Assembly (NCBI GenBank): GCA_913058215.1
Contig: CAJXQE010000023.1
Span: 1-37,347, forward strand
Origin: an uncultured Verrucomicrobiales bacterium
Lineage (GTDB): Bacteria > Verrucomicrobiota > Verrucomicrobiia > Verrucomicrobiales > DEV007
Length of the DNA stretch: 37,347 bases
Direction of reading: 5' to 3'
Shown here piece by piece: positions 1,753 to 37,347 of the stretch. The position numbers and the translations under genes were made by a program. The stretch's first letter is position 1, and each line of letters begins with the position of its first letter. The notes beneath the pieces are model-generated. The model did no database searches and was not told the origin of the DNA. It saw nothing but the letters and a program-made list of their open reading frames with translations.

Positions 1753-1806
1753 AGGCGACTAGCAGAAATAAACTATGCATGCTTCCCGCATCCTCCCGAC
1801 AGGCTG

Positions 1807-1859
1807 ATATTCGGAAATCCTTCGCGACATATAGTTGAAGGTAAATATCCGAATATTCG
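1807..1859. promoter_or_regulatory. Inverted repeat in the hydrolase-YVTN gap
   Basis: A 9-bp perfect inverted repeat, atattcgga at 1807-1815 and tccgaatat at 1848-1856, overlaps a 10-bp palindrome cgaatattcg at 1850-1859. There is no T-run after it, so an operator or RNA hairpin fits better than a Rho-independent terminator. The following gene starts at 1951. No regulator is known. Confidence 0.35.
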
Positions 1860-1950
1860 ATTCCTAAGCGGAGAAATGTGACGCCAGAACTTCAACCCAG
1901 CCAAGTCTCCTCGCCATTCGATTCAATTCATCCTTTCAGTTAACTCACCA

Positions 1951-6658: not shown

Positions 6659-6752
6659 TGTTTCGCGCCCGACCGATGGACGCGGCTCCTACCCGTGATT
6701 CTTCCCTCGAAACTCTCGATTGGGCGAGGAGAACACTTTAGTATTCAACAGA

Positions 6753-7265
6753 ATGGAGACGCCCCTCAAAAATGAAGACAAAGCTTCGCAGGCGAGCGTG
6801 GGCGGGAAGATCGTGCGGTTGCTGCTTCCAGTTGCCCTGCTCGCGGCGGGCTGGTATGGATTCTCCAAACTGAGCGAGAAGCCTGAAGCGGCCAAAGAGG
6901 CTCCCAAGGAAACTAGAGCTATCAAGACCCGAGTCGCCGAATTGGAGGTAGTCGACTTCCAAACGGTTATCACGACCCAGGGAACCGTTCGTTCGCACGA
7001 AGAGGTTCCGTTGAGTTCTCAGGTCGCCGGGGAGATCACCCGGATTCATCCGAACTTCGAAGACGGCGCTTTCTTCGGAGCGGGAGAAATCCTTCTCGAA
7101 ATCGATCCCTCCGATTTTGCACCCCCTCAATCCCAGCAGGACCGACGCGCCTATAAGCAACCCTTGAAAAAGCGAATTCCTATCAATGGGCGGTTTGATT
7201 GGGGCCAGGAGAAACTTAAGTCCGAGATGAAGATTTTGTTCTCGAGTTGGACTGAACCGGATTGA
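6753..7265 (+). pseudogene. RND/HlyD-type efflux adaptor, truncated at residue 122 by repeat copy A
   Basis: Residues 1-122 are the N-terminal part of a membrane-fusion (periplasmic adaptor) protein. There is a cytoplasmic leader, one membrane helix (LLLPVALLAAGWYGFSKL), then the first lipoyl/barrel-sandwich half: VITTQGTVRSHEEVPLSSQVAGEI followed by GEILLEIDPSDF. In intact proteins the sequence continues into a coiled-coil hairpin, the second lipoyl half and a beta-barrel. Here homology stops exactly at 7118, where the dispersed repeat begins; the remaining 48 residues to the stop at 7265 are read-through of repeat and antisense ABC-gene sequence. An upstream TTG (6720) in frame is an alternative start. 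The product cannot assemble a normal tripartite pump. Confidence 0.75.
7118..7190 (+). repeat. Dispersed ~70-bp repeat, copy A
   Basis: First of three direct copies (others at 11456 and 15024). Shared landmarks in order are cacccc, a ggcaggaccgacgc-like core (here agcaggaccgacgcgc), then cttgaaaaagcgaattcct. It sits exactly between two gene fragments, the adaptor to its left and the ABC membrane domain to its right, so it marks a recombination or assembly junction. Confidence 0.85.
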
Positions 7266-8293
7266 TATTTCTGAGGGATCGGATTTTTGATCTCTTCAGA
7301 AAAGCGTTCGGCGATTGCGGATACCGAAGGCAGGGTGGAGATAAGCCGCTGCCAGACGCCCTGAAGCGATCCCAGCATGGGAACCAATCGGGCAAAGATG
7401 AAAATGAGAAGAAGAAGGCTCGCCTGATTGAGGGGAAATTGTGAAATAGCGAAATACACGATGAGCGAAAGCAGACCTGCTCCGACGATTGATTGGATCA
7501 ACGACACCATCGACTGCAGGCGGCTCATTTGATGCAATTGGTCCTGGATTCGACCTGCCGATTCCGCCAGAATTCCGGATTCTCTCTCTTCCCTCTCAAA
7601 TGCCTTGATCAGTTTCAACGCGTTGAGATGCTCGGTAATACCGTCGTACTGTGCTTTAAAGCTTCTGCGAATCGATTCGCTTGTTTTGAAATGGCGCCGT
7701 CTAAACGGAGTGAGCCCAAGGAACATTACTCCACCGCAAAGAACTGCCATTGAAGTGAACCAGGGAGAGAGATTGAGGGCGACGAGACAGTAAAAGAGAG
7801 TAACTACAGCAGTCGAACAGAGAGTCAGGCTCTGTTTGAGAAACTGACTCAATTGGCTCGAATCCTGTTGAACCATGTTCAGGATATCTCCTCCCGTACT
7901 TTTACGCGAGTCAATCCAGGGACGGTAGAGCCAATTTTGATACTGCTTGACCTGAAATTCACGTGTGATGGTGCGGACTAACTCAGAGCTGGAAATAGCC
8001 AGAAGATACTTCCCGACTCCTACTACGCAGATTGCTACAAAAAAAAGAATCAGGGCATTTTCAAGCCTCCAGGAAACTCCCAGTTGCTCCGATATTTCGA
8101 TGATTTTCCTGATTAACGGAGGGATCGATTCTGTGTTCTTTGCTTCTCCTATACCTATGAGATGCAAGAATGGAACAATCAGGAACAGTCCGACACTCTG
8201 GACTGCGCCAGTAAGAAGCAAAAGGAAAAACGTCAAGCCGATTCGCCTGCCCGCAAGCTGGAGGAAAATTCGGAAAAAACGATGGATTCGCAT
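7151..8293 (-). pseudogene. ABC exporter membrane domain, ATPase lost at repeat copy A
   Basis: Read on the minus strand from ATG 8293 (MRIHRFFRIFLQLAGRR; in-frame ATG at 8431 is an alternative) this gives about 380 residues. It has the six-helix ABC exporter type-1 fold: LTFFLLLLTGAVQSVGLFLIVPFL, ALILFFVAICVVGVGKYLLA, a coupling region with QYQNWLYRPW, further helices around CSTAVVTLFYCLVALNL, and SLIVYFAIS. The chain then reaches the first strand of the nucleotide-binding domain (ISDLSFSWPQSNRPLIGI), and the repeat begins before Walker A. Walker A, the signature and Walker B are all absent. It was probably a half-transporter exporting a peptide or lipid, and is now presumably non-functional. 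It is the last gene of the minus-strand tail-collar/DUF6916 cluster. Confidence 0.75.
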
Positions 8294-8511
8294 CGTTGGA
8301 GCTTCCCAGGGTTGTCCCTTCAAGTCAACCCGGCTGGTATTTGCCGAAAGAGACGATTGAACTGGCAAATCCGTGAGTGCAGATTGCAGTCGCCTTTTGA
8401 TAACGGTCCGGGTGGAAAGCGATCCAACCAATTACTGATAGGACAGGTCAGGAGCGGTGTCTCAGGCAGGTTAATGTGCTCGTCAGCCTGTCTCCTTTCC
8501 TGTTCTCCGAA

Positions 8512-11597: not shown

Positions 11598-14500
11598 ATG
11601 AACCGCTTTGGAATTTTTGCTCTTCTTTTCGTTTCTGCCTTTGTCGCAGGGCCAAATTCATTTGCTCAATGGAGCGAATACCCGCAGCCCCGGCTCATAA
11701 TATTTTCAAACGGCTACTCAGTAACCAAAGATCCACGGGCCAATTCCCCGATCGTTAAGTTTGTTACCGGTCCCACTGAGGCAAATATCAAAGGCACTTT
11801 CACAAACGATACTGGCCTTACCTTTTACCTCTCCGACTGGAGTTGGGATCGTCGCATGAGCGGGCAATCCCATTTCTGGATGCTCCCGAAGACAACCCCA
11901 GCCACCCCAAAACCGAATCCTGGTTCAAGTGCTGAATACCAGGTGATGAACAGCGCCCAGGAGTTCTCATTTCCTAAGGGATTCACCATCGTCGCCGCTC
12001 CCTCCTCTACTGCCAAGAGAATATCTACGAAGCCGGGGCCGCTCACGGCATCCGTCCGTGCATACAAAGACACCGGTGGGATTCGCTATTACATGTCGGA
12101 CTGGAGTTATCAGAGGATTCGCGAGGGACATAAGCCGAACTGGATTCGTCCTGCCTCGGCTATGAAGGTCGATACGCCTGCTGAACCTGATTTGCCACCC
12201 GCCTACAAATTCAGTAAGCAGGATTCTACCATCGTATTTAGCCGCGGCTATGAAGTCATTGGCGGAATAGGGCCGTCCCAAAAAGTGTTACGAAGGGAAG
12301 CAAAACCTTCCGCAGTTTTCACAAAAGCCAGCGCTTTCAATTCCCGCTTCAACGAAGATCAATACTATCTCGATATCGACAACTTCAGTCGATGGAAAGC
12401 CGGTCAACCATTCCTTTGGATCAAGGAAGTTCACAGCCCCGACCGGCCTGACCTTGTTCCTCGAATGGCCAAGCTGAAAGGAAGTCACAAACTCATGTTT
12501 GAAACGGCGAGATACTCTTCAATACCTTGGAAATTGTCCTCGGAGCTTTACGTATTTGATCGGCGGAAGGCCGTTACAATGATCAGCGAAATTGATTTGA
12601 AACCCTACGTTACCGAATTCGCTTTCTATTACGAAGACCAGGAATTCCCACAACAATGGATGCGGGAAGTCGCCAAGATTTTTAATCAAAGAGGCGAACT
12701 GCCCGACTCTATCTCAACGCTAAGGAATCGACTTTCCGAATACCCTGCACTCAGAGAACTTCACAAAACACACACCGATGAGATGATGGTCAGCTATGTC
12801 GATGATTGGGCACAATTTGATCGAAGGGTCGTTTCAATTCTCGAAGCCGAACGCGAAAACTTTGCCGAAGTCGAAAAACTGCTATTTCCAATCATCGATG
12901 AATGGAATCCGTCTGACGATGGGCTCAATGCTTCCGGTCCGAAAATCAATGTGCTCAGGGAGTATGCGAGGGCGCAATGGAAACAGGGGAAGACTGACGC
13001 CGCGCGAGCCAGCACGCGTCTCTGGTTGGATGCCTACGCCCGTGATATTGCGAGCGAACTGCTCCACCCGGAATATGTGGATGCCTCACAGCGGGTCATT
13101 GAGTTTGACTCAGACTTTGAAGTGATCGGTGACTATTTTGATCTACTCGAAGCGGTGACTGACCCTGAAATCGCAGCGGAAATTGTGATCGGATTGAAAG
13201 GACTCAAACTTGCCGTGACGACTTCGCAGCAAATCCAACGCGCCAACTCTGCCGATCCGGTAGTGGCGGCTCTCTCCAGAGAATTAGTCCAATTACTTGA
13301 GCAACAACAGCGCGATGCTATTGCAGGGAAAGAATTAGACGGTCAGAGGGAGGAGCGAATTTCTGAGATCAATTCCGAACTGGCGATGCGTCGACTGAGC
13401 GGCACACAACTCTCCCTTCGCGACAATCCGCAATGGTCCAAACTACAAAGCGAGATCGATAGACGCCGCAAAGCGGGCGCAGACGAGTGGGATGTGAAGA
13501 AACTGTCCGGCCAGCGGGACCTGATTGCTCTCGGCCACATGATCGAACGCGGAAAATTCATCGCCAAATCTGCCGACGTTGCCGCAAAGCTCCGGGCCGA
13601 TGAAGCGCTCATTGACTTCTTCAAACTCCCCGGAGCCACTTTCGAAGAAAAAGGACGCTACGGAGCCGTCGTCCTTCTACCTGACGGCTCAACCCATCTG
13701 GTTGCCATTGGTGAAACCCAGACCATCGACGGAGTGGTCAAAGAATTCAGGGACCTTATTCAGATAACCGGAAAGTATTCCAACCATTCCGATGAGCAGC
13801 TCGAAGTGGACTCGGTGAAGGTCCGGGCCCGGGTTTTTGATCTGATTCTGAAGCCTCTCCTTCCCCATCTTCCGTCGATCAATAAACTGGCCATCTGCGC
13901 CGACTCTCAGCTCCACTTTGTTCCCTTCGACGCGCTCCATTCCGGAGACGGCAACATTGCAGCCAACCAGTGGGAAATCACCTACATCAACGCAGCACGC
14001 GATCTGCTTCGCCCTCGATCAGAACAGGCTGCCAATGGAGGTACCGCGCTGCTGATTGGAAATCCGAATTTTCAAATCACAAATGCGGAAGCGTCCTCTG
14101 AAGACTATGTCAGCAAACTGTTCGCGCTTGACGAGAAATCCCGCAACCTTCTCTCAAATGTAGCGAGAGGCGTCTCTTTCGGCCCGCTCCCGGGCACCAG
14201 GGAAGAAGTGCTCAAGCTTGCTCCCAAGCTTGCGAAAGCTGGATACCGGGTAAAAACACTCACTGGAAACGGCGCAACAGAAAGTGCACTCAGCAGGCTC
14301 ACCGAATCGCCAACTATTCTTCACTTCGCCACCCACGGATTCTTTTTCAACGAACTCCCCGTTGCCAGCAAAAATGCAAGCTCAGCTGACGAGCCAAAAT
14401 CAGCTATGCTCTTGAGCGGGCTTGCTCTATCCGGAGCGCAGAATACCCTCGATGCCTGGGACAAAGGATCGTTCCCCTCCCCCTCCTCCGATGGAATGCT

Positions 14501-14855
14501 GCTCGCTTCCGAAGTCTCGCAACTCGATCTCAGCAAGACCAACACGGTCGTCCTCAGCGCCTGTGAAACGGCGGTTGGTAAAGCTCTAAGCGGAGAAGGT
14601 GTCGAAGGGCTGCGCAGTGGGCTCGCCCTGGCCGGTGCCGAAAACGTTGTCCTGACTCTCTGGCCGGTCGACGATGCCGCAACTGTCGAAGTGATGGAAG
14701 TCTTCTACGACAAAGTGCTTTCAGGACTTCCCGCCCCGATCGCCATGGCCGAGACGAAGCGGGAATTGTTCAAGAAATTTTCGGCGGCAGAAGGTGAGTT
14801 CAACGCACTGCTGAAGATCGATCCATTTATCGTGACGCGAAGCGGAGGTCTTTGA
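11598..14855 (+). CDS. Secreted CHAT-domain protease with three N-terminal SH3-like repeats
   Basis: 1085 residues. A signal peptide (to about residue 23) is followed by three tandem ~65-residue repeats at 32-97, 122-184 and 211-276, each with a 'YLSDWSWDRRMSGQSHFWM'-like centre; these look like SH3-type ligand-binding domains. A helical, TPR-like middle (about 330-650) leads to the CHAT (caspase-like HetF) peptidase from about 690. It has LHFVPFDAL, GPLPGTREEV, the catalytic histidine H913 in HFATHGFF, and the cysteine C989 in LSACETAVG. CHAT enzymes are cysteine proteases related to caspases and separase; many act in regulated proteolysis or defence. The normal C terminus (a 'PFYWAAF-like' strand) is missing: after LFKKFSAAEG the sequence diverges, ending about 170 bp before repeat copy C. 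It may therefore be slightly truncated. Confidence 0.8.
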   Translation: MNRFGIFALLFVSAFVAGPNSFAQWSEYPQPRLIIFSNGYSVTKDPRANSPIVKFVTGPTEANIKGTFTNDTGLTFYLSDWSWDRRMSGQSHFWMLPKTTPATPKPNPGSSAEYQVMNSAQEFSFPKGFTIVAAPSSTAKRISTKPGPLTASVRAYKDTGGIRYYMSDWSYQRIREGHKPNWIRPASAMKVDTPAEPDLPPAYKFSKQDSTIVFSRGYEVIGGIGPSQKVLRREAKPSAVFTKASAFNSRFNEDQYYLDIDNFSRWKAGQPFLWIKEVHSPDRPDLVPRMAKLKGSHKLMFETARYSSIPWKLSSELYVFDRRKAVTMISEIDLKPYVTEFAFYYEDQEFPQQWMREVAKIFNQRGELPDSISTLRNRLSEYPALRELHKTHTDEMMVSYVDDWAQFDRRVVSILEAERENFAEVEKLLFPIIDEWNPSDDGLNASGPKINVLREYARAQWKQGKTDAARASTRLWLDAYARDIASELLHPEYVDASQRVIEFDSDFEVIGDYFDLLEAVTDPEIAAEIVIGLKGLKLAVTTSQQIQRANSADPVVAALSRELVQLLEQQQRDAIAGKELDGQREERISEINSELAMRRLSGTQLSLRDNPQWSKLQSEIDRRRKAGADEWDVKKLSGQRDLIALGHMIERGKFIAKSADVAAKLRADEALIDFFKLPGATFEEKGRYGAVVLLPDGSTHLVAIGETQTIDGVVKEFRDLIQITGKYSNHSDEQLEVDSVKVRARVFDLILKPLLPHLPSINKLAICADSQLHFVPFDALHSGDGNIAANQWEITYINAARDLLRPRSEQAANGGTALLIGNPNFQITNAEASSEDYVSKLFALDEKSRNLLSNVARGVSFGPLPGTREEVLKLAPKLAKAGYRVKTLTGNGATESALSRLTESPTILHFATHGFFFNELPVASKNASSADEPKSAMLLSGLALSGAQNTLDAWDKGSFPSPSSDGMLLASEVSQLDLSKTNTVVLSACETAVGKALSGEGVEGLRSGLALAGAENVVLTLWPVDDAATVEVMEVFYDKVLSGLPAPIAMAETKRELFKKFSAAEGEFNALLKIDPFIVTRSGGL

Positions 14856-21341: not shown

Positions 21342-21601
21342 GTCGCTCCTCTATCTCTTATCGACAGGTCTGATCTCACTTTGCGGGAGAGGTTTGCCCA
21401 TATATCTAGACGTGAGCTTTTAATAAGCAATCACACCTTGCCTGCGCTTCTTAGACGGTATGACCCAACTGCGGGTAAACCGTGAGGCGATTCAGCACCA
21501 ATTCCGCCCCCTCCCATTGCTTCACCGAAGCGTTCCTGTCCGCCTACCCACTTCGCTCAATTTCTGGCCCTAGCCATTATCAACAATTTTTACATTCCTT
21601 A

Positions 21602-24600
21602 ATGAGTAACAAAACTAATCTCAAGCCCTCAGTCCCGAGAGATGGATGGCAGGGCTTCAAGCAAAACCTTCTCCCGGACGCGACCTCGGGGTTCGTGGTG
21701 TTTCTATTAGCGTTGCCGCTGAGCCTTGGTATTGCGGCAGCTTCGGAGTTTCCTCCTATCATGGGGCTCTTGACTGCTATTATCGGTGGCTTGCTTGCCA
21801 CCTTCTTTACTGGGTCCCAATTGGCGATCAAGGGCCCTGCTGCCGGGTTGATTGTTATTGTCGCTGAAGCTGTCACGGAGTTCGGGGGTGGCACAGAAGG
21901 GTGGCACCTTGCGTTGGGTGTGATGGTAGTCGCCGCGATCATACAGATTCTGTTCGGTCTTTTGAAGTGGGGCAAATTTGTTGATATATTTCCACTCTCA
22001 GCAGTTCACGGAATGCTCGCAGCCATTGGGTTCATTATCATAGCCAAACAGATCCCGGTGCTGCTGAATGTTGATCCCGCCCTGTCTTCCGGAAAAGGGC
22101 CACTAGCACTACTCGGAGCGATTCCCGGCTTTTTCATGAACCTTGATCCGCAGGTGAGTATCATTGGCGGTATCAGCCTTGCCATCATGTTGGGGTGGGG
22201 TTTTGTAAAGCACCCCGTGCTCAAAAAAATCCCGGCACCATTGCTGGTACTCCTGTTTGCGATCCCTACAGGCTTATATATGAATTTGGGTGCCACTGCT
22301 CCGGATTACACCTTGGTCAAGGTAGGTAAGCTCACTGAGCAAATTGGTGTTAACGTTAGCATGAGCGGCGTACACCACCTTTCAGTCTTCATAAAGTTCG
22401 TCATCATGGTGGCCCTGGTTGGAAGTCTTGAAAGCCTCCTTACCGTGAAGGCCATTGATATGATGGATCCGTGGAAGCGAAAAGCCGATCCTAACAAGGA
22501 TATGATTTCAGTCGGGATTGCCAATTCGCTGTCCGCGATTTTGGGTGGATTACCTATGATCTCAGAGGTCGCGAGAAGCTCCGCAAATGTCGCACAGGGC
22601 GGGCGAACCCGGTGGGCGAATTTCTTTCACGGTCTGTTCCTTCTGGTATCGGTTTTGCTTGCCTACCGTGTCCTTGAGTTAATTCCGAACGCGGCGCTGG
22701 CGGCCATGTTAATCGCTGTAGGCATTAAGCTTGCCCATCCTAAAGAGTTTATCCACATGTTGAAGGTGGGTCCGGAACAGTTGGCAATCTTCGTAACTAC
22801 GATTTTCTTCACCTTGTTTGAGGATCTGCTCGTCGGTATTGCCGCAGGGATGGGGCTCAAGGCTATTATCCATATCTTTCGTGGCGCCTCCTTTAAATCC
22901 TTGTTTCGTTCCGGAGTTAAGGTCGAAGACAAAGAGGGCGACATCATTTTGCATCTAGGGGATTCGGCGGTCTTCACCAATTACCTTGGAATTAAAGACG
23001 CTATTGAAAAGTTGCCCGACGGTAAAAGTGTCATCTTTGATTTTGCAAAAACCGTTGTGATCGATCACTCGGTTATGGAAAATTTACATCATTTCGGAGA
23101 CGACTACAGAAACGCCGGCGGAAAAGTTGAGTTTGTCGGCCTCGATAGTTTCACGCCGTCTTCCTCCCACCCGAGCGCTGCACGGAGGAGAAGTGCAAGC
23201 GTCTACAAGCCCACGAATACCGAATGGGCTATCGAGGACAACTCGGCTGTTTTTAATGAGGAGCATCTTTTGGAACTCCTGAAACACTATCTGCCTTCAC
23301 AGGCCGCGTTGAAAGATTTTGTCCATCACAACCCGCTCCATGCCTTCCAGGATCGGGAGTTCTTTGATGCGATCTTTTCGGCTTCCAAGGTTTTCGGTAT
23401 CAAGACGACATTCAGCCTGAACGAGTATCGTAAACTGTCCGCTCATGGCCGGATAAAGGCTTCGATTATCGACAGGGTCATAGGTGAAGAAAAGGGAGTC
23501 GACAATATCGAGGATTGGAGACAGAAAATGCTGCATGGAAAGTATACTCACATTTACGATCCACGAATCGGGAGATTGCGCTCGGAATGGAAGCAGCATA
23601 TCAAGTTTTCTCTGGATGACCGGGTTCACCCCCTACTCTTTCGACTTATCTGCAGCTATCTCGACCAGGGAATTGCGGTAGTGCATTTCCCGTTCGAAGA
23701 TACAGGATTGATCGAAGCGATTCGGACGATCGAGAAGAACAGTTTCACCAGTTTTTTTAAGACGAGTAGAGCGAGGAACTTGCTGCTGGATGACAGCGTC
23801 ACTCTGGAAAGCCTCCTCGATACCGTGGTAGGGAATAAGGCCTTCTACGAGCAATATGTGTTTGATCAGCAATTCGCCCACAAAGGTTGGAGCGGTATCA
23901 TCAATGCGATTGAAGACCAGCCGGGCACACTGCTTTATCAGAAGAAGATTGAGCTTCGAGATTTCGTCATGCTGGAATTGCTTCTCGAGGTTGATGCGCT
24001 TGAACGGGAACTGGGTAAAAACTGGCAACCTCTATGCAGCCATGTGATTTTTCCTCCGGAAAACTATTTTGCCGACGTCCCTGCCGGGGAAATGCAGGAG
24101 GTGTTGAAGCTGTGGCAACTTGCCTTCGAATGGGATTATTACGACGAAGTGCTCACCGGTGTTGGGCATTTGAACAAACTAAAGCGAAGCCACGAACAGA
24201 CGGAAACCAGCTTTCAGGCCCTCTTCTGTGTGGATGATCGGGAGTGTTCGATTCGTCGCCATCTGGAATCTGTTGATCCACAATGTGAAACTTATGGCGC
24301 TCCGGGCTTCTTCGGTGCTGCTATCTATTTTCAGCCCTGTGGAGGCCAGTTTTATGAGAAAAACTGTCCAGTTCCAATCACTCCAAAACATTTGATTAGG
24401 GAAATTGAGACAACCCGGTCGCATGGAACAGTGCCCTTTCATGATAAAAGTTCTCATACCTTTGTCAGGGGATTTTTATCCTCCCTGTCTCTGGGGTTGA
24501 TATCCAGCTTCAGGATGGTCGTTGATCTATTCCGTCCGACGATGCGGCCTGATATAGCAGATGCATTCTCCCACATGGATCTTCATGGAAAGCTACTCAT

Positions 24601-25774
24601 CGAATGCGAAGATCCTTCGAAAACCGAAGATGGACTACAGGTCGGTTTTACCGTCCCTGAGATGATTGAAATTGTGGAGGGCATTCTTCGGGGAGTGGGT
24701 TTGACAAAAAACTTTGCGGATGTGGTCTACATCGTTGCTCACGGAAGCAGCAGCGCGAACAATCCGCATCACGGTGCTCACGATTGCGGCGCTTGTTGCG
24801 GACGCCCCGGCGCTCCGAATGCAAGGGTCTTTTCGTTTATGGCGAACCATCTGGAAGTGAGGCTGGAATTGGGGAAACGGGGCATCGCGATCCCGGAGAC
24901 CACTCAGTTTCTGGCTGGTATGCATGACACAGCAAGCGATGAGATTGCGTTCTACGATCAATCTACGCTTTCGTCGACGAACCAACAAAAGCACGAAGTC
25001 AATATTCATAGAATTGAGGACGCCCTTGATTTGAACGCAAAAGAAAGGGCCCGGCGATTCGCTTCAATTGATACCAATCAGGGGATCAAAAAAATTCGAA
25101 AGGCCATCAAAGACCGCTCGGTGTCCTACTTTGAGCCACGTCCCGAACTGGGGCACGGGACCAATGCGCTCTGTTTCATCGGTTCCCGGCACAGAATGAA
25201 GGGGCTATTCCTCGACCGACGTGCCTTTCTTCAATCCTACGATTACCAGCAGGATCCCGAAGGAGAGGTGCTGGCCAAAGTTATAGCCCCTCTTCCCGGT
25301 GTTTGCGGCGGTATCAATCTTGAATACTACTTTTCCCGCATGGATATCGAAAAAATGGGGGCCGGGACGAAGTTACCACACAATGTAGTTGGGCTGATTG
25401 GGGTCACGAACAGTAGTGATGGCGATCTTCGCCCCGGACTACCTCTACAGATGATAGAGAATCACGATCCGGTTCGGCTCCTAATGGTGGTAGAGCACCG
25501 CCCGGAGGTGGTGCTTCAGATCCTTGCCAACTCTCCGGAGAACCTTGAATGGTTCGAAAAGGGATGGGTGCATCTCGTAGTTTCGTCACCGGAGGACGGA
25601 GAACTCTACTACTTCAAAAACGGAGGATTCCAAGAGTATCAGCCGATGGGCGAAGTATCAAACACCGCTGACATTCAGAATACGATCGATTCACATCCCG
25701 GAATGAGATCCAATCACATCCTCGACGCGACCAGAGAGAATATCTCTGTGCACATTTACGGAGATTCTAAATAG
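21602..25774 (+). CDS. dabA: SulP-STAS-DabA fusion (predicted inorganic-carbon transporter)
   Basis: 1390 residues starting at ATG 21602 (MSNKTNLKPSVPRDGWQGFK); an in-frame GTG at 21482 gives a non-conserved extension. Residues 1-430 are a SulP-family anion transporter (PLSLGIAAASEFPPIMGLLT, TGSQLAIKGPAAG), and about 438-520 a degenerate STAS domain. After a linker, about 549-1390 is a full DabA (DUF2309). The beta-carbonic-anhydrase-like zinc site is intact: Cys876 and Asp878 in FCVDDRE, His1047 in VAHGSSS, and Cys1062 in GAHDCGACCG, with the same 15-residue spacing as Halothiobacillus DabA H524/C539. DabA with DabB performs energy-coupled CO2 hydration to bicarbonate inside the cell. The SulP part could import or handle bicarbonate/sulfate (inference). 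dabB follows after 29 bp. The fusion in one chain is the striking point. Confidence 0.9.
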   Translation: MSNKTNLKPSVPRDGWQGFKQNLLPDATSGFVVFLLALPLSLGIAAASEFPPIMGLLTAIIGGLLATFFTGSQLAIKGPAAGLIVIVAEAVTEFGGGTEGWHLALGVMVVAAIIQILFGLLKWGKFVDIFPLSAVHGMLAAIGFIIIAKQIPVLLNVDPALSSGKGPLALLGAIPGFFMNLDPQVSIIGGISLAIMLGWGFVKHPVLKKIPAPLLVLLFAIPTGLYMNLGATAPDYTLVKVGKLTEQIGVNVSMSGVHHLSVFIKFVIMVALVGSLESLLTVKAIDMMDPWKRKADPNKDMISVGIANSLSAILGGLPMISEVARSSANVAQGGRTRWANFFHGLFLLVSVLLAYRVLELIPNAALAAMLIAVGIKLAHPKEFIHMLKVGPEQLAIFVTTIFFTLFEDLLVGIAAGMGLKAIIHIFRGASFKSLFRSGVKVEDKEGDIILHLGDSAVFTNYLGIKDAIEKLPDGKSVIFDFAKTVVIDHSVMENLHHFGDDYRNAGGKVEFVGLDSFTPSSSHPSAARRRSASVYKPTNTEWAIEDNSAVFNEEHLLELLKHYLPSQAALKDFVHHNPLHAFQDREFFDAIFSASKVFGIKTTFSLNEYRKLSAHGRIKASIIDRVIGEEKGVDNIEDWRQKMLHGKYTHIYDPRIGRLRSEWKQHIKFSLDDRVHPLLFRLICSYLDQGIAVVHFPFEDTGLIEAIRTIEKNSFTSFFKTSRARNLLLDDSVTLESLLDTVVGNKAFYEQYVFDQQFAHKGWSGIINAIEDQPGTLLYQKKIELRDFVMLELLLEVDALERELGKNWQPLCSHVIFPPENYFADVPAGEMQEVLKLWQLAFEWDYYDEVLTGVGHLNKLKRSHEQTETSFQALFCVDDRECSIRRHLESVDPQCETYGAPGFFGAAIYFQPCGGQFYEKNCPVPITPKHLIREIETTRSHGTVPFHDKSSHTFVRGFLSSLSLGLISSFRMVVDLFRPTMRPDIADAFSHMDLHGKLLIECEDPSKTEDGLQVGFTVPEMIEIVEGILRGVGLTKNFADVVYIVAHGSSSANNPHHGAHDCGACCGRPGAPNARVFSFMANHLEVRLELGKRGIAIPETTQFLAGMHDTASDEIAFYDQSTLSSTNQQKHEVNIHRIEDALDLNAKERARRFASIDTNQGIKKIRKAIKDRSVSYFEPRPELGHGTNALCFIGSRHRMKGLFLDRRAFLQSYDYQQDPEGEVLAKVIAPLPGVCGGINLEYYFSRMDIEKMGAGTKLPHNVVGLIGVTNSSDGDLRPGLPLQMIENHDPVRLLMVVEHRPEVVLQILANSPENLEWFEKGWVHLVVSSPEDGELYYFKNGGFQEYQPMGEVSNTADIQNTIDSHPGMRSNHILDATRENISVHIYGDSK

Positions 25775-25803: not shown

Positions 25804-27678
25804 ATGAATATAGAAACTTTAATCTTCATCCTCGTGGTGACACCCATAGTGTCTCTGCTTATCGGGTTTTGCTTACCAAATCAATCTGAAGGCCCGATTT
25901 TTAAGTCCGCGATTTTTGGAATCATCGTCAATTTCCTTGTCGCACTGGCAATACTGGTCCTGTGGATTAAGGGAGGATTTGAATCGGTCTTTTTGAAAGG
26001 TCCGGTTTTGTATCATGCCAAAGAAACTGAATTCTCGGTGAGCTTTTTCCTTGATGGCTACGGGCTGGCTTACATCTTGCTTTCCACTTTCCTGACAGGG
26101 GTGGTGGTTCTATTCAGCAAATCCTATATCCATCGGGAAAAAGGCTTCAAACGATTCTTTAACAATCTGAAGTTCTTCTACCTTGGATTGATGGTCCTTG
26201 TCCTTGCCGGAAATTTGGAAATGCTTTTTGTAGGTTGGGAAATCCTCGGCGTGACCTCTTTCTTTCTGATCAGCTTCTATCGGGAACGTTATCTTCCCGT
26301 GAAGAATGCTGTAAAGGTTGTTTCGCTCTACCGCGTTGCAGACATCTCCCTTCTGCTGGGGATCTGGGTATGCCACCATTACTTTGGTCACAGCATCAAT
26401 TTTGCGGAATTGGATGGGCTGAACAACGCACAACCCCACATCATGGCTCACGGGTTCTACGAGTTTTTCATCCCGGCGACTTTTCTCCTCGCCGCCATGG
26501 TTAAGTCCGCTCAGTTTCCATTCTCCTCCTGGTTACCCAGAGCGATGGAGGGACCGACAACCTCGAGTGCCATATTTTACGGATCGCTCTCGGTGCACGT
26601 CGGGGTGTTTCTGTTAATCCGAACCGCTCCCTTCTGGGAAGCAAACCTGGTCTTCCATTTCATTATTGGAGGCGTAGGTCTGTTAACTTGCGTCGTGGCT
26701 ACATTGATCGGCAGGGTCCAGTCAACGATTAAGACCCAGATTGCCTATTCTTCGATCGCCCAAATCGGACTGATGTTTATCGAGGTTTCCCTCGGGTGGT
26801 ATTGGATTGCGATCATACATTTCATTTGTAACGCCCTGCTTCGAAGTCATCAATTGCTCGTTTCGCCGTCGGTTTTGAACTATCGGATTCATAATCAGTT
26901 CTTTCACTTCTCGAAGCCGGGGCCTCATGGAACGGCAGGCCTCTGGAATAAGATAAGGCTCTCGCTATACACCCTTGGAATACAAGAGTTCAACCTCGAC
27001 AGTTTCATGTTCCGTTTCCTTTGGCGACCGCTAAAGAGGACCGGGAAGCTCTTCGATTTTCTGGGGATCCGAAATACTTACGTTCTGGCATTGCCTCCAT
27101 TTTTGATGGGGCTGTGGGCGGCATATAACAGATTACTTATTCCGGATTGGTTGCTCCGCTACCTCCCGGAGGCTTTTGCTCTCGCCGGTCTGGTGTTTAT
27201 CCTTAAAGCCTTTGTGGAAAGAAGATCGGCGCTTAATGCCTGGGTACTGATTGTGGTCAATCAACTCTACCAATCACTGGCGTTCAGTTTTAATGAGGAG
27301 TTTGCTTTCAGCCAGGTCTATCTGTATCTGAGTGGGATTTCTGTTTCAGCTTTGATTGGTATCTGGGCCATCAACCGCCTTCGTAACAATGGCGAGAATG
27401 TTTCTCTTTCGAAGTTTAACGGCCATGTCTACGTCTATCCCAGGGTGGCATTTATTTTTATGTTCGCGTGCCTTGGTTTGGCCGGATTCCCCGTAACACC
27501 AACATTTATCGGGGAGGATTTGATGTTGGGACATATTCATGAGAATCAGTTTCCATTGTTAATCCTGATTGTAGCGAACCTGATTATGGACGGACTTGTG
27601 ATCTTCCGTATCTATTCCCGACTGTTCCTCGGCCCCCATGAGAAAGGCTATCACGAAGTCTCTTACAGGTCTTCATAA
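25804..27678 (+). CDS. dabB: DabB, NuoL/Mrp-like membrane subunit of the DAB system
   Basis: 624 residues, polytopic membrane protein of the proton-antiporter (complex I NuoL/MrpA) family. Visible are the first helix (ETLIFILVVTPIVSLLIGFC), the glutamate Glu146 in FVGWEILGVTSFF, and the lysine Lys234 in MVKSAQFPFSSWLPRAMEGP, both key ion-path residues of this family. Later helices include LVFHFIIGGVGLLTCVVATL and the C-terminal FPVTPTFIGEDLMLG segment. DabB is thought to couple cation flow to the DabA reaction. It lies 29 bp after the SulP-DabA gene, so the two are an operon. The length is slightly above the usual ~550 residues. No complex I or carboxysome genes are near, so it is not a nuo gene. 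Confidence 0.9.
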   Translation: MNIETLIFILVVTPIVSLLIGFCLPNQSEGPIFKSAIFGIIVNFLVALAILVLWIKGGFESVFLKGPVLYHAKETEFSVSFFLDGYGLAYILLSTFLTGVVVLFSKSYIHREKGFKRFFNNLKFFYLGLMVLVLAGNLEMLFVGWEILGVTSFFLISFYRERYLPVKNAVKVVSLYRVADISLLLGIWVCHHYFGHSINFAELDGLNNAQPHIMAHGFYEFFIPATFLLAAMVKSAQFPFSSWLPRAMEGPTTSSAIFYGSLSVHVGVFLLIRTAPFWEANLVFHFIIGGVGLLTCVVATLIGRVQSTIKTQIAYSSIAQIGLMFIEVSLGWYWIAIIHFICNALLRSHQLLVSPSVLNYRIHNQFFHFSKPGPHGTAGLWNKIRLSLYTLGIQEFNLDSFMFRFLWRPLKRTGKLFDFLGIRNTYVLALPPFLMGLWAAYNRLLIPDWLLRYLPEAFALAGLVFILKAFVERRSALNAWVLIVVNQLYQSLAFSFNEEFAFSQVYLYLSGISVSALIGIWAINRLRNNGENVSLSKFNGHVYVYPRVAFIFMFACLGLAGFPVTPTFIGEDLMLGHIHENQFPLLILIVANLIMDGLVIFRIYSRLFLGPHEKGYHEVSYRSS

Positions 27679-29602: not shown

Positions 29603-30148
29603 ATGAAATCACTTGCCGAACATGATCTTCGAGATCGCATCGTGAAACAGGCATTCGGATGTCGGGAGGCGCTTGAGGCGTACGCGTTTGTCATGCTTCG
29701 CGATCTCAGTGCAGCGGAGGACGTAGTGCAGGAGTGCCTGATTGTCGTGATGGAGAAGTATGACGAGTTTGAAGAAGGCACGTCGATGATGGCTTGGACG
29801 CGGGCGATCGTCCGCTGGAAAGCTTTACAACTCATCAATCGTCGGAAGAAGCAGGCCAGTCTGCAAGAACGGATGCTTGGCGATTCAGTAGAGGCCGCGT
29901 TCTGCGAAGTCGACTCGGATGATCATGCTGAAGCGGTCCACGAGCGCCACCGTCGATTGGAGCGATGTCTGAACCGGGTCTCCGACCACGCAAGAATGCT
30001 GCTGGATAGCGTTTATGGCGGCGGGATGAGCTACCAGGCGGCGGCCGACTCGCTGGGGATGAAGGTCGAAGCCGTGAGGAAGCGTATTTTCCGCACCAAG
30101 GGGCAACTGCGCGACTGCCTGCAACGTTCAACAGGAGCAACACAATGA
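29603..30148 (+). CDS. ECF-type RNA polymerase sigma factor
   Basis: 181 residues. Sigma region 2 is visible as EALEAYAFVMLRDLSAAEDV, then VQECLIVVMEKYDEF; region 4 is a helix-turn-helix with GGGMSYQAAADSLGMKVEAV, then RKRIFRTKGQLRDCL. Length and plan fit the small ECF factors of the Rhodopirellula/Verrucomicrobium type. Its last 4 bp overlap the start of the next gene (ATGA at 30145), so sigma and its partner are translated together, which usually means the partner regulates the sigma factor. The start is the ATG at 29603; no strong Shine-Dalgarno precedes it. Targets are unknown; they may include this operon. Confidence 0.88.
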   Translation: MKSLAEHDLRDRIVKQAFGCREALEAYAFVMLRDLSAAEDVVQECLIVVMEKYDEFEEGTSMMAWTRAIVRWKALQLINRRKKQASLQERMLGDSVEAAFCEVDSDDHAEAVHERHRRLERCLNRVSDHARMLLDSVYGGGMSYQAAADSLGMKVEAVRKRIFRTKGQLRDCLQRSTGATQ

Positions 30149-31161
30149 AACAAGAGCGATTAGAAACCTTGATTGAAGGGTATCTGGGAAACCTCCTCGT
30201 CGATGGGGAGATGTCTGAGCTGGCGAGTTGGCTCGACGAGGATGCCGCCCACCGTACTACCTTCCTGGAAGCGATTCAGTTTGAATACTCTATGGGGTCA
30301 CACCTGAAGGCTAGAGAAGCACTCGGCGACGAGAAACTGATTTTGATGGAGGAAAAAGGCGACAAGAGAGCCGTCCCATTTCCAAAGAAGACCTGGATGG
30401 CCAGGCCCCTGAGAGTCGCAGCCATGTTGGCATTCTGTGCCCCCCTAACCTGGCTACTGTGGCTCGGGGTCATCATGTTGCTCGGGGCGCCGACCCGGAC
30501 CTTGGCGGATGTCGCGAAAGCGATGGAAGGATTCCGCTACGTCCACTGGCAGCAACTTGAGATCAACAAGAACGTATTCGACTTCCTTGGCGTCGATCAA
30601 GTCGAACAGAAGCGGACGTCGTACTTCGATATGAAGGGGCACCGGTCGAGATTGGTGACCCACTACCCGTTCGGGGACTACATCCAGATTCAACATCATA
30701 AGACCGGCAAAACACTATGGTTCAATCCGCAGGATGGGACCACGACGATCACTAAGAGTAGGGGCCTGTATCTCGAACTTGCTGACGAGCTTGCTAAAGT
30801 CGCCAAAAAGCCAGAACCGATGCGGCATCCCTTTGAGTCCGTCCTGAAGGCGGGGGACGTTAAGATCACCAAGGCGAAGCTGGATGGGGTCGATTACGGC
30901 TATGCGGAAATTGTTGATGAAAATAATGGAGTGTCTGGAACCCTCAAAATTTGGTTGGATCTCCGAACCCAGCTTCCGTTTCGCACAGAGTATGCGCTGC
31001 CGGGCTTGAAGCTTCACTACACCAATACGGGGTTCACGTGGACGAACGAACTCGAGAACGCAGAGACCTTGTTTCAGATCGACACTCCCGAGGAAAGCAA
31101 GGCCAAGACCGGTGATCGTCTTGAGGGCAAGCCAGACTCCGGGGAGAAGAAGGGCAAATGA
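30145..31161 (+). CDS. Membrane-anchored putative anti-sigma factor
   Basis: 338 residues. Residues 1-80 are cytoplasmic and carry the opening seen in anti-sigma/FecR-like partners (LETLIEGYLGNLLVDGEMSE, then LASWLDEDAAHR). One membrane helix follows at about 95-112 (VAAMLAFCAPLTWLLWLGVI). The outer part (120-338) reads like a LolA/outer-membrane lipoprotein-sorting-like fold (FDFLGVDQVEQKRTSYFD and LVTHYPFGDYIQIQHHKTGK). Both ends overlap neighbours by 4 bp, sigma factor upstream and protease downstream. Role as a sensor that holds the sigma factor is inferred from order and topology, not from a proven anti-sigma domain. Confidence 0.65.
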   Translation: MKQERLETLIEGYLGNLLVDGEMSELASWLDEDAAHRTTFLEAIQFEYSMGSHLKAREALGDEKLILMEEKGDKRAVPFPKKTWMARPLRVAAMLAFCAPLTWLLWLGVIMLLGAPTRTLADVAKAMEGFRYVHWQQLEINKNVFDFLGVDQVEQKRTSYFDMKGHRSRLVTHYPFGDYIQIQHHKTGKTLWFNPQDGTTTITKSRGLYLELADELAKVAKKPEPMRHPFESVLKAGDVKITKAKLDGVDYGYAEIVDENNGVSGTLKIWLDLRTQLPFRTEYALPGLKLHYTNTGFTWTNELENAETLFQIDTPEESKAKTGDRLEGKPDSGEKKGK

Positions 31162-32642
31162 CTCCGGGACTACAACGACAGTCCTTCGGTCGCCTGGGGA
31201 CGATCGGTGTAGCGCTTGCCTTGGCTTGTGCTTATGCCGGGGCCTTGCCGCTCTTGGTCGCCCAAACGGGAGAACCCGCTGGATATACCGTCTTGGATCG
31301 AACCATGGTCGGTGACTACCCGCAGGACGTCGCGGCGCTCCGGGATATGGAGTCGAAGGTGATTGAGGTGGCCGAGAAGGCGATGCCATTCGTGATTAAG
31401 GTGGGGCAGGGCTCTGGTGTCATCATCGATGCCGACGGCTTGATCCTCTCGCAGTGGCACGTGACCCACAAAGATCCCGCGAGAGGGCCTGGCGATCGAA
31501 TTCGTGTCGTCTTTCGGGGTGGTGAAGAGAGATCGGCAGAACTTCTCGGAGCCGACATCTTTAACGACATTTCCCTGCTTCGATTGATCGAACCTGGTCC
31601 CTACCCCTTTATTTCGATTGCCGAGCGTGCAGACGTTCAACTGGGAGATCCCGTCATTAAGTTTGGCTACCCCGTGTCTGGCGGTCGACCATCCAGGGCG
31701 CCGGTCGTCCGGCTCGGCCGGGTGGTCTGTGCCGGTGAGGATTCGATCCGCAAACACGGATTCTTCGTGGCGGACTGCTTCGTGAATGGCGGCGATTCTG
31801 GCGGGCCGCTTTTCGACCTGGACGGACGGCTGGTCGCGATCATCCGCGCCAGCGCCATGCCCCACATCGTTCGTCCAAACTTCGGTGGAGTCCGACCGAG
31901 ACATCGGAGTGTCTTTTCCTATACGACGAGTGCGCGGGTAAGAGAGGTCCTGCCGAAGATGCTCGAGGGAAAGGTTCTCCCGGATCGCCCACCGCAAAGG
32001 CGGGAGGAGTATTCTTGTCTCCGATCAACGACCCAAGTTCCACCGGATTGCTGGACGCAGGGAAGCTACACCTGTCGGGCCTACGGCAACGCGACGAAGA
32101 AAGTCGGGCAAAGCGTCGTCGAGATCCGCGACGGAGACGGCAAGGCTGTATCGCTCGGCTTCGTGGTGGGTGACGACGGGTGGCTGATGACCCGGAGCGC
32201 GACGCTGCCGCTCTACCCGGTCTGCGTCCTCCCCGACGGTCGAGAGTTGGTGGCGGAGATTGTAGGGGTTTCCTCGAAACTGAACATCGCCATGCTGAAA
32301 GTCCAGGCCATCGGATTGCAGGCTATCTCCTGGGGAGAGCCTGTGGATTTACCAGTCGGGACTCTTGTTGCGATTCCCGGATCTGCGGCAAACACGGTGG
32401 CGGCCGGTGTGGTCAGTGTCTCGAACCCGGATGCGACCTTCGAGCACGATGCCGGACTCCTTCCCCACGAATACGGCGGACCGATCGTCGACCTGAGTGG
32501 TCGCGTCGTCGGCGTCAGCATCTCGCCCTTGGTCTATGGCTCGATCGCACTCTCAGTGGAGGAGGTGAGAGCATCCGTTCCTGAACTGAAGTCTGGTAGG
32601 CTTCGGCCAAAGATCGGAATCCCAAAGGGTCTAGCCCCTTGA
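31158..32642 (+). CDS. HtrA-like serine protease with a degenerate second protease domain
   Basis: 494 residues with a signal peptide or anchor (GTIGVALALACAYAGALPLL). The first trypsin-like (S1C) domain, about 70-250, is complete: His101 in SQWHVTH, Asp137 in FNDISLL and Ser214 in GGDSGGPL. The second domain (about 312-475) has the same fold pattern (LGFVVGDDGWLMTRSATLP ... LNIAMLK ... EYGGPIVDLSGRVVGV), but all three catalytic positions are replaced: Ala348, Asn376 and Tyr439. The inactive copy may bind substrates or the membrane protein next to it, in the place of a PDZ domain. It overlaps the putative anti-sigma gene by 4 bp, suggesting regulated proteolysis of that protein or a shared stress role (inference). 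Confidence 0.85.
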   Translation: MTPGLQRQSFGRLGTIGVALALACAYAGALPLLVAQTGEPAGYTVLDRTMVGDYPQDVAALRDMESKVIEVAEKAMPFVIKVGQGSGVIIDADGLILSQWHVTHKDPARGPGDRIRVVFRGGEERSAELLGADIFNDISLLRLIEPGPYPFISIAERADVQLGDPVIKFGYPVSGGRPSRAPVVRLGRVVCAGEDSIRKHGFFVADCFVNGGDSGGPLFDLDGRLVAIIRASAMPHIVRPNFGGVRPRHRSVFSYTTSARVREVLPKMLEGKVLPDRPPQRREEYSCLRSTTQVPPDCWTQGSYTCRAYGNATKKVGQSVVEIRDGDGKAVSLGFVVGDDGWLMTRSATLPLYPVCVLPDGRELVAEIVGVSSKLNIAMLKVQAIGLQAISWGEPVDLPVGTLVAIPGSAANTVAAGVVSVSNPDATFEHDAGLLPHEYGGPIVDLSGRVVGVSISPLVYGSIALSVEEVRASVPELKSGRLRPKIGIPKGLAP

Positions 32643-32697: not shown

Positions 32698-34875
32698 CTA
32701 TTTATCGCTTGTATAGCCAGGTCGGTGATCGGTGATAAAGCGACTCGGTGAAAAATAAGTAGTTTCATCGCGAGGGTAGAGATCTCTCCTGATCTTGACA
32801 TCAAGGCGTTTGCGGATCTCCAGGTGAAGGTGTGTCGTATACATTCCCTCGTTATTTCCCATCGTTCCTATCTTGTCACCGCGCCTCACAAGATCACCGA
32901 CGGAGACCTCTCGCTTTTGCAAATGTCCGTAGAACGAATCGATATAGCGAACCTCTCCGCCCTCAGCGTAGGCGTGCCTTACGATGATGATATTGCCCCA
33001 TCCACGCTTCTCGTTTTGTGAGTGAACGACAAGTCCGTCGCCAATCGCATAGATCGGATCACCGAGAGGTGTCTCATCACCATCAAGGCCTGTCCAATCA
33101 TCACCCAGATGACCGTTTGCCTCGAACCCCTCTGACAATTGATACCCCTCGGCGTCAGGATTTTCGAAGGGATAGTCGAAGCCATCCGCTATCTGCACCG
33201 GTACTTTGAGACCGTCCACCACAGCGACCCGGGGAGCGTCCGCTACTAGATCGCGTCCCTCCTTGCCGCGGAGGCGCTTGATCGCGGCGACAATACGCTG
33301 AGCGACTTTCAATCGAAACGCAGGATCAGTAATCGCAGCCCGGTCCAGAGGGTTTGAAAGGATACCAGCGTCCAGATGCACGGTAGGGATCGAGCTGCTC
33401 CTGAGTAGCAGGAATTTCGCTGATCTCAGTTCTTGAAACGGTATATCTTCCAACTGACTCAGCTCATCCTTGATCAATTCCGCGAGCATCGACTGGTTCA
33501 ATTCTTCACGTTCCGGATGGAATACATTGAACCCGCGATCTGCTTTGTCCCCACTGGAACCAACATGGAGGGTAAGGGAAATCGCTTCCTTTTGTTTTTT
33601 GACACCAAGTTTTCGGGCAAGAGCCGAACGGGTGGCCAAGGGGACGAAAACATCTTCCTCCCGGGTCATGATGACATTGAAGCCTTCGTCCTTGAGTAGT
33701 TGCTCAACCTTCTTCGTCAGCAAGAGGTTAAGCTCCGCTTCCGTGACATCGCCAGACCTTGCGCCTGGATCCTTTCCGCCGTGGCCAGCATCAAGGACAA
33801 CCGTATCGAACCGCATTCCCTTAAAAACTCGTTCCTCAGTGTTGGGCGTTTGCGCGTTGGCCACGGCGAGCCCGATTGGCATCAAGAGCACCGAGGATAG
33901 AACGGCACCATGTATCCATCGGCGCACGTTTTTTCGATTCGTCGTGTCGGATGCGATTCGGGTCAGCCGCGTTTCGAGATTTCCGACATTCGCCATACCG
34001 AGATGAGAGGGGCCGGGGCGGGACGAACTCGCCAGGGACAGAACAAGGTGTGCATAACGACTTCGATCATTCCCGGTGGATGATTCGACGACCAGATCAT
34101 CGCAGGCGTGCTCGCATTCGATTTGGAGCTTCCTCACCATTAACCATGCAATTGGATTCCACCACTGCATCGCTTGCAGCCATTGGCCGAAACCCAGAGT
34201 GAGCGCATCGCGGCGACGAACGTGAGCGAGTTCGTGGCGGAGCACATCCAGTATCGTCTCATCCGTCCAAGCTTGAGCATCGTTCGGCAGGATGATACAT
34301 GCCGGGAAAGTTCCCCATGTCATCGGCGGCAGTGATTTACCAAGCGGCCCAAGGTGAATTCGGCAATTTGGAGCTCCCTGGATTGAGTCGGCCAGATCGC
34401 GAATCCTTCCCTCAGCCTGACTGCAAATCCCGGTGAGTCGGAAGAGACGGAACTGAGCAATTACGATACGCAACCCCAGGAAGAGAAAACCGGCAACTGC
34501 CAGAATCAAAGATGCACTCAGACCGAATCGAGTCAGTGCCCCCCAATCCAGTCTGTGCTGCATTTTCGCAGCCGCGTTGACTGGCATTGCAGCACTTGCA
34601 TCAGCGGAATCCGCCCCAATCGTCGAGATGGAATTCGGAAGCGCAGCTGGCAGTGTCCACGAGATCTCCTTATTGGATCTCGTCAAATGAACCGCAAGAT
34701 CGACAATCAGCATCGTGAAGATCAGTGCCATCCCGGCCACGATAATGAGATGACGGACCGACGCCGAGGCGCGACGCAAACTGCCCAACAAAGCAAGAAC
34801 AGCCAGTCCGATGGCAAGTGAGCGAAGTGTCCAGATTAGAAGTCCGGCTGCGATCGATTCGATGCTATCGTTCAT
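32698..34875 (-). CDS. M56 (BlaR1-like) antirepressor fused to amidase_3 and M23 peptidase domains
   Basis: 725 residues. N-terminal membrane helices (about 12-33, 40-63, 118-140) and a gluzincin domain with HELAH (His214, Glu215, His218) form the BlaR1/MecR1-type M56 protease; another helix follows near 325-345. The ectodomain is not the usual penicillin-binding sensor. Residues about 355-540 are an N-acetylmuramoyl-L-alanine amidase (amidase_3): His365 in LDAGHGGKDPG, Glu379 and His437 as zinc ligands, but the catalytic Glu of 'EAGFLSN' is Asp502 (LDAGILSN). Residues about 585-700 are an M23/LytM domain with HxGxD (His589, Asp593), His651 and HLH (His682, His684). It overlaps the BlaI-type repressor gene by 4 bp. 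Likely a cell-wall sensor that cleaves the repressor. Confidence 0.88.
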   Translation of the reverse strand: MNDSIESIAAGLLIWTLRSLAIGLAVLALLGSLRRASASVRHLIIVAGMALIFTMLIVDLAVHLTRSNKEISWTLPAALPNSISTIGADSADASAAMPVNAAAKMQHRLDWGALTRFGLSASLILAVAGFLFLGLRIVIAQFRLFRLTGICSQAEGRIRDLADSIQGAPNCRIHLGPLGKSLPPMTWGTFPACIILPNDAQAWTDETILDVLRHELAHVRRRDALTLGFGQWLQAMQWWNPIAWLMVRKLQIECEHACDDLVVESSTGNDRSRYAHLVLSLASSSRPGPSHLGMANVGNLETRLTRIASDTTNRKNVRRWIHGAVLSSVLLMPIGLAVANAQTPNTEERVFKGMRFDTVVLDAGHGGKDPGARSGDVTEAELNLLLTKKVEQLLKDEGFNVIMTREEDVFVPLATRSALARKLGVKKQKEAISLTLHVGSSGDKADRGFNVFHPEREELNQSMLAELIKDELSQLEDIPFQELRSAKFLLLRSSSIPTVHLDAGILSNPLDRAAITDPAFRLKVAQRIVAAIKRLRGKEGRDLVADAPRVAVVDGLKVPVQIADGFDYPFENPDAEGYQLSEGFEANGHLGDDWTGLDGDETPLGDPIYAIGDGLVVHSQNEKRGWGNIIIVRHAYAEGGEVRYIDSFYGHLQKREVSVGDLVRRGDKIGTMGNNEGMYTTHLHLEIRKRLDVKIRRDLYPRDETTYFSPSRFITDHRPGYTSDK

Positions 34876-35280: not shown

Positions 35281-35296
35281 CACTGAATTTTCAGTG
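35281..35296. promoter_or_regulatory. Operator-like dyad O1, 4 bp from the repressor start
   Basis: cactgaa-tt-ttcagtg, a perfect 7-bp dyad. It would overlap the leader and any ribosome site of the minus-strand repressor gene. BlaI/MecI-type operators are similar-sized dyads, but with a different consensus (TACTACA-type). Confidence 0.6.
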
Positions 35297-35319: not shown

Positions 35320-35335
35320 AACTGAAATTCCCGTG
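35320..35335. promoter_or_regulatory. Operator-like dyad O2 (imperfect)
   Basis: aactgaaattcccgtg matches O1 at 12 of 16 positions, 39 bp centre to centre from it. Paired dyads on one face of the helix would fit cooperative repressor binding and control of the repressor, and perhaps of the divergent gene at 35627. Confidence 0.45.
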
Positions 35336-37301: not shown

Positions 37302-37347
37302 CTGTCTCTTATACACATCTCCGAGCCCACGAGACCGAGGCTGATCT
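37302..37347 (+). other. Untrimmed Nextera i7 adapter
   Basis: 37302-37320 is the reverse mosaic end (ctgtctcttatacacatct), 37321-37335 the Read 2 arm, 37336-37343 (cgaggctg) a standard i7 index, and 37344-37347 the start of the P7 arm. It is not genomic. Confidence 0.97.

Follow-up and report, generated by a model that had tools for sequence, protein, structure and literature searches.

The DNA analysed here (the window) is a stretch of 37,347 nucleotides from a draft genome (G000), which is incomplete (595 contigs, 7.67 Mb, 92.8% complete). On its minus strand, blaI is followed by a gene for a fusion protein in which a BlaR1-type M56 membrane protease domain precedes an Amidase_3 and an M23 domain (Table 1). 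All three Pfam matches were above the curated cut-offs (Amidase_3, E = 9.6e-37; Peptidase_M56, 4.7e-23; Peptidase_M23, 9.8e-19) and lie in one uninterrupted frame, which bears out the three-domain architecture that had originally been predicted from the sequence. The blaI product matched PF03965 over its full length (profile 1-114 of 115, E = 3.4e-17).

Two other genomes of the family, G019 and G061, encode proteins with the same domain order (loci L041 and L042), in single frames that run through both linkers. Because M56, Amidase_3 and M23 are thus encoded together, each time downstream of a blaI, in these genomes as well, the fusion is genuine, and a frame error or a chimera joining separate genes was ruled out. 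The window's own genome contains a second fusion (L004), located behind a different blaI, in which M56 is joined to Amidase_3 but M23 is absent. Structure prediction of the ectodomain (residues 346-725), made without an alignment, was poor (mean pLDDT 36).

Table 1. Positions of the features discussed; the last two rows are numbered on their own loci, all others on the window
Feature	Position	Strand	Remarks
blaI (Penicillinase_R, PF03965), 134 aa	34872..35276	-	directly upstream of the fusion gene, 4-base overlap
M56-Amidase_3-M23 fusion gene	32698..34875	-	725 aa, ATG start, 0 internal stops
M56 (BlaR1-type) membrane protease domain	33961..34833	-	residues 15-305, Pfam
Ala-Asn-Ala, then Gln342	33853..33861	-	residues 339-341, just past the fourth helix
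Amidase_3 domain	33277..33801	-	residues 359-533, Pfam; H365, E379 and H437 kept
Asp502 codon	33370..33372	-	catalytic-Glu position of Amidase_3, from alignments
M23 domain match	32806..33075	-	residues 601-690, Pfam; ligand motif starts earlier, at H589/D593
Perfect inverted repeat CACTGAA-N2-TTCAGTG, 16 bp	35281..35296	.	4 bp before the blaI start
Decayed second dyad (candidate)	35320..35335	.	upstream of the first dyad, 39 bp from it, 3 mismatches to it
ECF sigma factor gene	29603-30148		convergent with the fusion gene
Gene for unassigned protein with hydrophobic stretch	30145-31161		convergent with the fusion gene
Gene for two-domain trypsin-like (HtrA-like) protease	31158-32642		convergent with the fusion gene
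Triple-domain protein L041 (G019)	5790-7937	minus	blaI at 7940-8365, 2 bases away; 34% identity to the window protein
Triple-domain protein L042 (G061)	2669-4885	plus	blaI at 2271-2672, overlapping; 32% identity to the window protein

The M56 head and its hydrolase ectodomain

The HExxH motif, which the original prediction had read as an intact HELAH, was confirmed at residues 214-218 of the fusion protein, and the further D, D and Y of M56 are also kept. The full set H214/E215/H218/D223/E255/D259/Y274 corresponds with identical spacing to H201/E202/H205/D210/E242/D246/Y261 of BlaR1, whose catalytic roles are taken from PMC9834060. In relatives, the Tyr aligns with small gaps. Hydropathy analysis gave four helices near residues 12-30, 44-62, 121-139 and 321-339, of which the fourth directly precedes the ectodomain. 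By hydropathy only, this layout is that of BlaR1; the third helix of the G061 relative is below the threshold, and a stretch after HExxH (near 220) is above it in all four relatives. The Ala-Asn-Ala/Gln342 sequence after the fourth helix, comparable with Gly331/Gln332 of BlaR1 (PMC9834060), would as a motif resemble a signal-peptidase site.

The NCBIfam models for BlaR1 and MecR1 matched the fusion over its M56 part with scores far under their cut-offs (59.4 bits against 400 and 19.5 bits against 1200, respectively). The class-D beta-lactamase-like penicillin-binding sensor domain was absent from the fusion by NCBIfam and Pfam, and Pfam places Amidase_3 and M23 at its position, as had been predicted. 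The fusion shares with the staphylococcal BlaI-BlaR1 and MecI-MecR1 systems a blaI gene beside the M56 protease, the catalytic residues and their spacing, an ectodomain after the fourth helix and dyads before blaI, but its ectodomain consists of Amidase_3 and M23 rather than the penicillin sensor. The original reading of the protein as a BlaR1-like sensor is partly supported, namely by its topology, its conserved M56 active site, the adjacent overlapping blaI and the dyads before it.

The zinc ligands of Amidase_3 domains are His-Glu-His and a Glu is the catalytic residue, and M23 endopeptidases have the signature HxxxD ... H ... HxH. The latter pattern is present in the fusion protein. Its residues H589, D593, H651, H682 and H684, as well as the amidase ligands H365, E379 and H437, do not vary among the three triple-domain proteins, in agreement with the predicted intactness of the M23 site, and the amidase ligands are kept in all 11 aligned amidase domains. 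Alignments with relatives and with solved Amidase_3 sequences also placed Asp502 at the position of the catalytic Glu, as had been noted from the sequence. Glu occupies this position in 9 of the 11 aligned domains and in five out of five solved Amidase_3 proteins among the alignments listed (31 sequences matched); Asp was found only in the window protein and in a paralogue on contig C64 of the same genome. Among the M56-amidase fusions, Asp502 is confined to the window copy, and L041, L042 and L004 keep Glu.

In the window copy, the amidase is probably weakened or binding-only because of Asp502; the M23 domain is probably active. The original suggestion of an amidase that binds wall material without cutting it is possible for the window copy, but it does not extend to the architecture as a whole because the three closest relatives keep Glu. 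A 713-aa M56 protein of G019 (L089, at 1541-3682), which belongs to the same group, has an ectodomain without a Pfam name that aligned to the amidase profile over 105 columns (hhalign probability 81%, E = 1.2e-5 for the pair) in a stretch without metal-site motifs. This one weak case hints that amidase-like domains can be kept for binding and lends slight support to a binding-only amidase in the window. After the amidase-like part of L089, repeated stretches look STN-like by eye; its gene lies behind blaI and tandem dyads. The C64 paralogue (L002, 1441-2628) is a free amidase-M23 protein of 395 aa with Asp for the catalytic Glu, whose M23 ligands look lost by inspection of the sequence, and it may be a pseudo-hydrolase that carries this pair of domains.

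The Amidase_3 domain shares its sequence family and zinc ligands with enzymes of the CwlD/CwlV/AmiC type, but the fusion is membrane-bound, and its window copy has Asp502 in place of the Glu. In the EnvC/NlpD-AmiA/B/C pairs, M23-type and Amidase_3 domains cooperate, and the activators lack some of the M23 ligands. In contrast, the fusion holds both domains in one chain with complete M23 ligands.

BlaI and the dyads before its gene

The perfect inverted repeat ahead of blaI, CACTGAAAATTCAGTG, is likely to be a BlaI operator. It differs from the TACAnnTGTA operator of the staphylococcal systems, a BlaI/MecI motif (PMC5460165): the window has no TACAnnTGTA and instead carries ACTGANNNNTCAGT, whereas the G019 triple-domain gene does have the classical motif, in three boxes. 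When three mismatches to the repeat were allowed, the window held three matches against 1.6 expected, which is chance level by sequence alone. It is therefore the 39-bp spacing that argues for the decayed second dyad. Two ACYRANNNNTYRGT dyads precede blaI at L042, L089 and L004 (39, 39 and 41 bp apart, respectively), and the perfect and decayed dyads of the window resemble these tandem arrangements. At another locus, L157, a dyad pair at 43 bp precedes a blaI-M56 pair whose ectodomain is carboxypeptidase-regulatory-like by inspection. An amidase-specific operator was thereby ruled out, indicating that this dyad type belongs to the BlaI subfamily and not to the hydrolase.

A search of the 7.67-Mb genome for further sites with at most one mismatch to the window dyad returned none (backward control, 0); the search used one strict pattern, which would miss degenerate targets elsewhere. 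A longer pattern, AAAACYNANNNNTNRGTTTT, which was drawn from L004 and L042 and is not matched by the window dyad, matched seven sites across G000, G019 and G061, compared with two for its backward control. The four sites in G000 and G061 are those from which it was drawn, and the real test lies in the three G019 sites, two of which are the paired dyads ahead of the L089 blaI and one of which lies elsewhere (L094). Across the three genomes, tandem TACAnnTGTA gave six matches at five places, against 0 for the control. One place is the blaI of the G019 triple; the other four lie immediately ahead of further BlaI ORFs or at their starts, and one of these ORFs (C362) was named by inspection only. 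Because dyad and TACAnnTGTA sites were found mostly before BlaI ORFs, these repressors seem to occupy mainly the operons that encode them. In Clostridium thermocellum, the regulons of BlaI_1845 and BlaI_0696 are likewise very small (PMC8457756): BlaI_1845 controls only its own operon, through ordered sites for four protomers. The BlaI_0696 motif, two GTCTAT repeats in inverted orientation with five nucleotides between them, differs from the window dyad in sequence and spacing.

A BlaI ORF was present at 19 of the 22 M56 loci of G000, G019 and G061, and the other three loci reach a contig end. The BlaI of Staphylococcus aureus is cut between Asn101 and Phe102 (PMC9834060). The window BlaI aligned with MecI over residues 5-120, with its ...LAAHF... 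on ...LVLNF... and Phe102 on Phe102. The presumed P1′ residue is Leu rather than Phe in two of the four BlaI proteins with ACYRA-type dyads (L042 and L004).

Relatives, rarity and history of the fusion

With up to 19 candidates scored per genome, matches covering both M56 and amidase (719-803 bits) came from four proteins, encoded in 3 of the 74 genomes of the family. The next match (184 bits) covers M56 only, and no other protein spans both among the matches listed. In a draw of 386 genomes of the order, the triple was found in three, with the extra M56-amidase protein in the window's genome (best two candidates per genome). Draws from the class (384 genomes) and the phylum (387) contained no spanning match beyond the window's own genome among the best three candidates per genome at E cut-offs of 1e-45 and 1e-55. 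These genome sets overlap, and degenerate fusions such as L089 (6-367, 142 bits), which are not counted as spanning, could be missed. The survey suggested with the original prediction thus finds that the architecture recurs behind blaI in G019 and G061 and is rare in the genomes searched. When the whole fusion was the query, 63 of the 74 family genomes matched at E ≤ 1e-30, nearly all through M23 alone; a free M23 protein like the tail of the fusion is common in the family. Another long protein, L048, ends in amidase- and M23-like stretches.

A scan of genome contigs found relatives of the M56 head beside blaI at three planctomycete loci, where profiles built in this analysis detected neither amidase nor M23. 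Plasmid sequences gave 181 matching records, and none covered 80% of the query among the matches listed (15 of 181). An Enterocloster plasmid match spanning 184-434 was M56 alone by Pfam, and an Azospirillum plasmid match was a free amidase by inspection.

The review PMC9662197, in the part available, describes M23 proteins with an M56 domain, thus both in one chain as here, and others with an amidase domain, and gives M23 proteins with further catalytic domains as less than 1% of its matches; that part does not describe an amidase beside M56 or a coupling to BlaI. We found no description of the exact M56, Amidase_3 and M23 combination in open-licence literature, among the matches listed.

To place the M56 heads, a tree of 34 domains was built from 21 of the 22 M56 loci of the three genomes (L109 was too short) and 13 loci of the class draw, one row of which (L127_cls) is an outlier of odd make-up. 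The G019 head falls in a supported clade of nine (100/99), apart from the window and G061 heads. The M56 domains of L089 and of the G061 triple group together (95/84), and the window head has no firm place. A single clade of the three triple-protein heads, a set named by architecture before the tree, was rejected (AU test, p = 1.0e-6), which rejects a single ancestral triple-domain protein as far as the M56 part is concerned. Because the three heads do not form one clade, hydrolase tails and BlaI/M56 heads were probably joined on two or more occasions.

For the tails, one clade was not rejected (p = 0.197 for the amidase and 0.158 for M23), nor was it recovered in either tree; the amidase tree left out 2 of 24 stretches, which were under 100 residues. 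In the M23 tree, G019 and G061 group with the free C64 protein (96/96), and the window tail groups with L048 (81/76) apart from them. This latter grouping may be a false join of long branches. Because long branches meet in both trees and one clade is neither rejected nor recovered, we make no firm claim on the lineage of the tails.

Ten other M56 proteins of G000, G019 and G061 were scanned with Pfam, some of them cut by the end of the locus. One carries a beta-helix, two a carboxypeptidase-regulatory domain and two a weak STN domain (below the Pfam cut-off); in the remaining five, nothing was assigned after M56. Because what follows M56 in these ten either varies widely or has no assignment, M56 looks like a modular sensor platform, with the hydrolase ectodomain one of many.

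A putative wall-responsive switch and its alternatives

We lean slightly towards reading the locus as a BlaI/BlaR1-type switch in which a peptidoglycan-hydrolase module replaces the penicillin sensor, so that the protein would act as a wall sensor, possibly also as a hydrolase, with control mainly of its own operon. From the known systems, we infer its signal, the binding and cleavage of BlaI, the hydrolase activity and the regulon as follows. The fusion would be anchored in the inner membrane by the four helices seen in hydropathy, with M56 facing the cytoplasm and Amidase_3-M23 facing the wall, a sidedness taken from BlaR1. Engagement of peptidoglycan or its fragments by the ectodomain would change the state of M56. 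As in BlaR1, M56 would then cut BlaI, near ...AH|F, and BlaI would leave the tandem dyads, allowing expression of the blaI-fusion operon. Because the sole near-match of the dyad found in the genome is at this operon, the main output would probably be the fusion protein itself, a self-adjusting, membrane-tethered wall sensor and maybe a hydrolase too.

More tentatively, sensor and effector could be one: an anchored amidase/endopeptidase whose contact with the wall sets its own amount via M56 and BlaI, giving closed-loop wall homeostasis, assembled at least twice from different BlaI/M56 heads with different operators. Wall-state sensing by bacteria outside the model groups is poorly known, and most work on BlaR1-type proteases concerns their role as beta-lactam receptors. 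If BlaI/M56 heads acquired hydrolase modules repeatedly, as seems to be the case, this would mark the head as a general platform for reading extracytoplasmic cues.

The fusion might instead be primarily a regulated wall hydrolase, with only its anchor making it a sensor. M56 and BlaI would keep the enzyme low, the ectodomain would be released to cut peptidoglycan, for example by signal peptidase after Ala341, and M56 would answer membrane or turnover cues rather than the ectodomain. Consistent with this, every triple has a complete set of M23 ligands, three relatives keep the amidase Glu and the operon is the sole strong dyad target found, and the Ala-Asn-Ala/Gln sequence after the fourth helix invites comparison with the shed sensor domain of BlaR1 (PMC9834060). 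However, the site is a motif only, the ten other scanned M56 proteins bear non-hydrolase or unassigned parts at that place, which fits sensing better, and L089, one weak case, keeps an amidase-like stretch without metal-site motifs. We judge this alternative unlikely, yet worth weighing.

A switch linked to beta-lactam resistance, which would read drug-caused wall damage instead of the drug and act on unlinked resistance genes, appears improbable. In its favour, wall fragments rise under beta-lactams. Resistance is also the classical role of BlaI/M56 pairs (PMC9834060), but the genome has no second match of the window dyad at up to one mismatch, and a Pfam scan of 19 window proteins found no beta-lactamase. 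An assembly chimera or a decaying gene, to which the draft assembly, the adapter-like sequence at the window's right end, Asp502 and the decayed second dyad might point, is largely refuted by the recurrence of the architecture in two independent genomes, by the continuous frame and by the other active-site residues being kept, and we regard it as very improbable.

At that right end (37302-37347), the contig reads CTGTCTCTTATACACATCT..., which we take to be the Nextera transposase adapter and which cuts off the last gene (DMFA2_C-like); similar-looking frames occur at the ends of two further contigs of this genome, C496 (L097) and C362 (L092). On the other side of the fusion gene, the ECF sigma factor, the unassigned protein and the trypsin-like protease are encoded in one apparent operon (29603-32642), possibly a set for envelope stress. 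Among family models, the ECF factor came closest to a 'Rhodopirellula/Verrucomicrobium' one (106.7 bits, under the cut-off of 124.55), which makes a bacterium of the PVC group a likely source. The ECF/trypsin-like gene set was not seen near L041 or L042 in ORF lists read by eye. Elsewhere in the window, a transporter of the sulfate-permease type and DabA, a protein of inorganic carbon uptake, share a single frame of 1430 aa (21482-25774), which is followed by a proton-antiporter subunit (25804-27678). The window also encodes a CHAT-domain protein of 1085 aa (11598-14855) and a 1098-aa protein with ankyrin repeats near its C terminus and a beta-propeller-like part (1951-5247).
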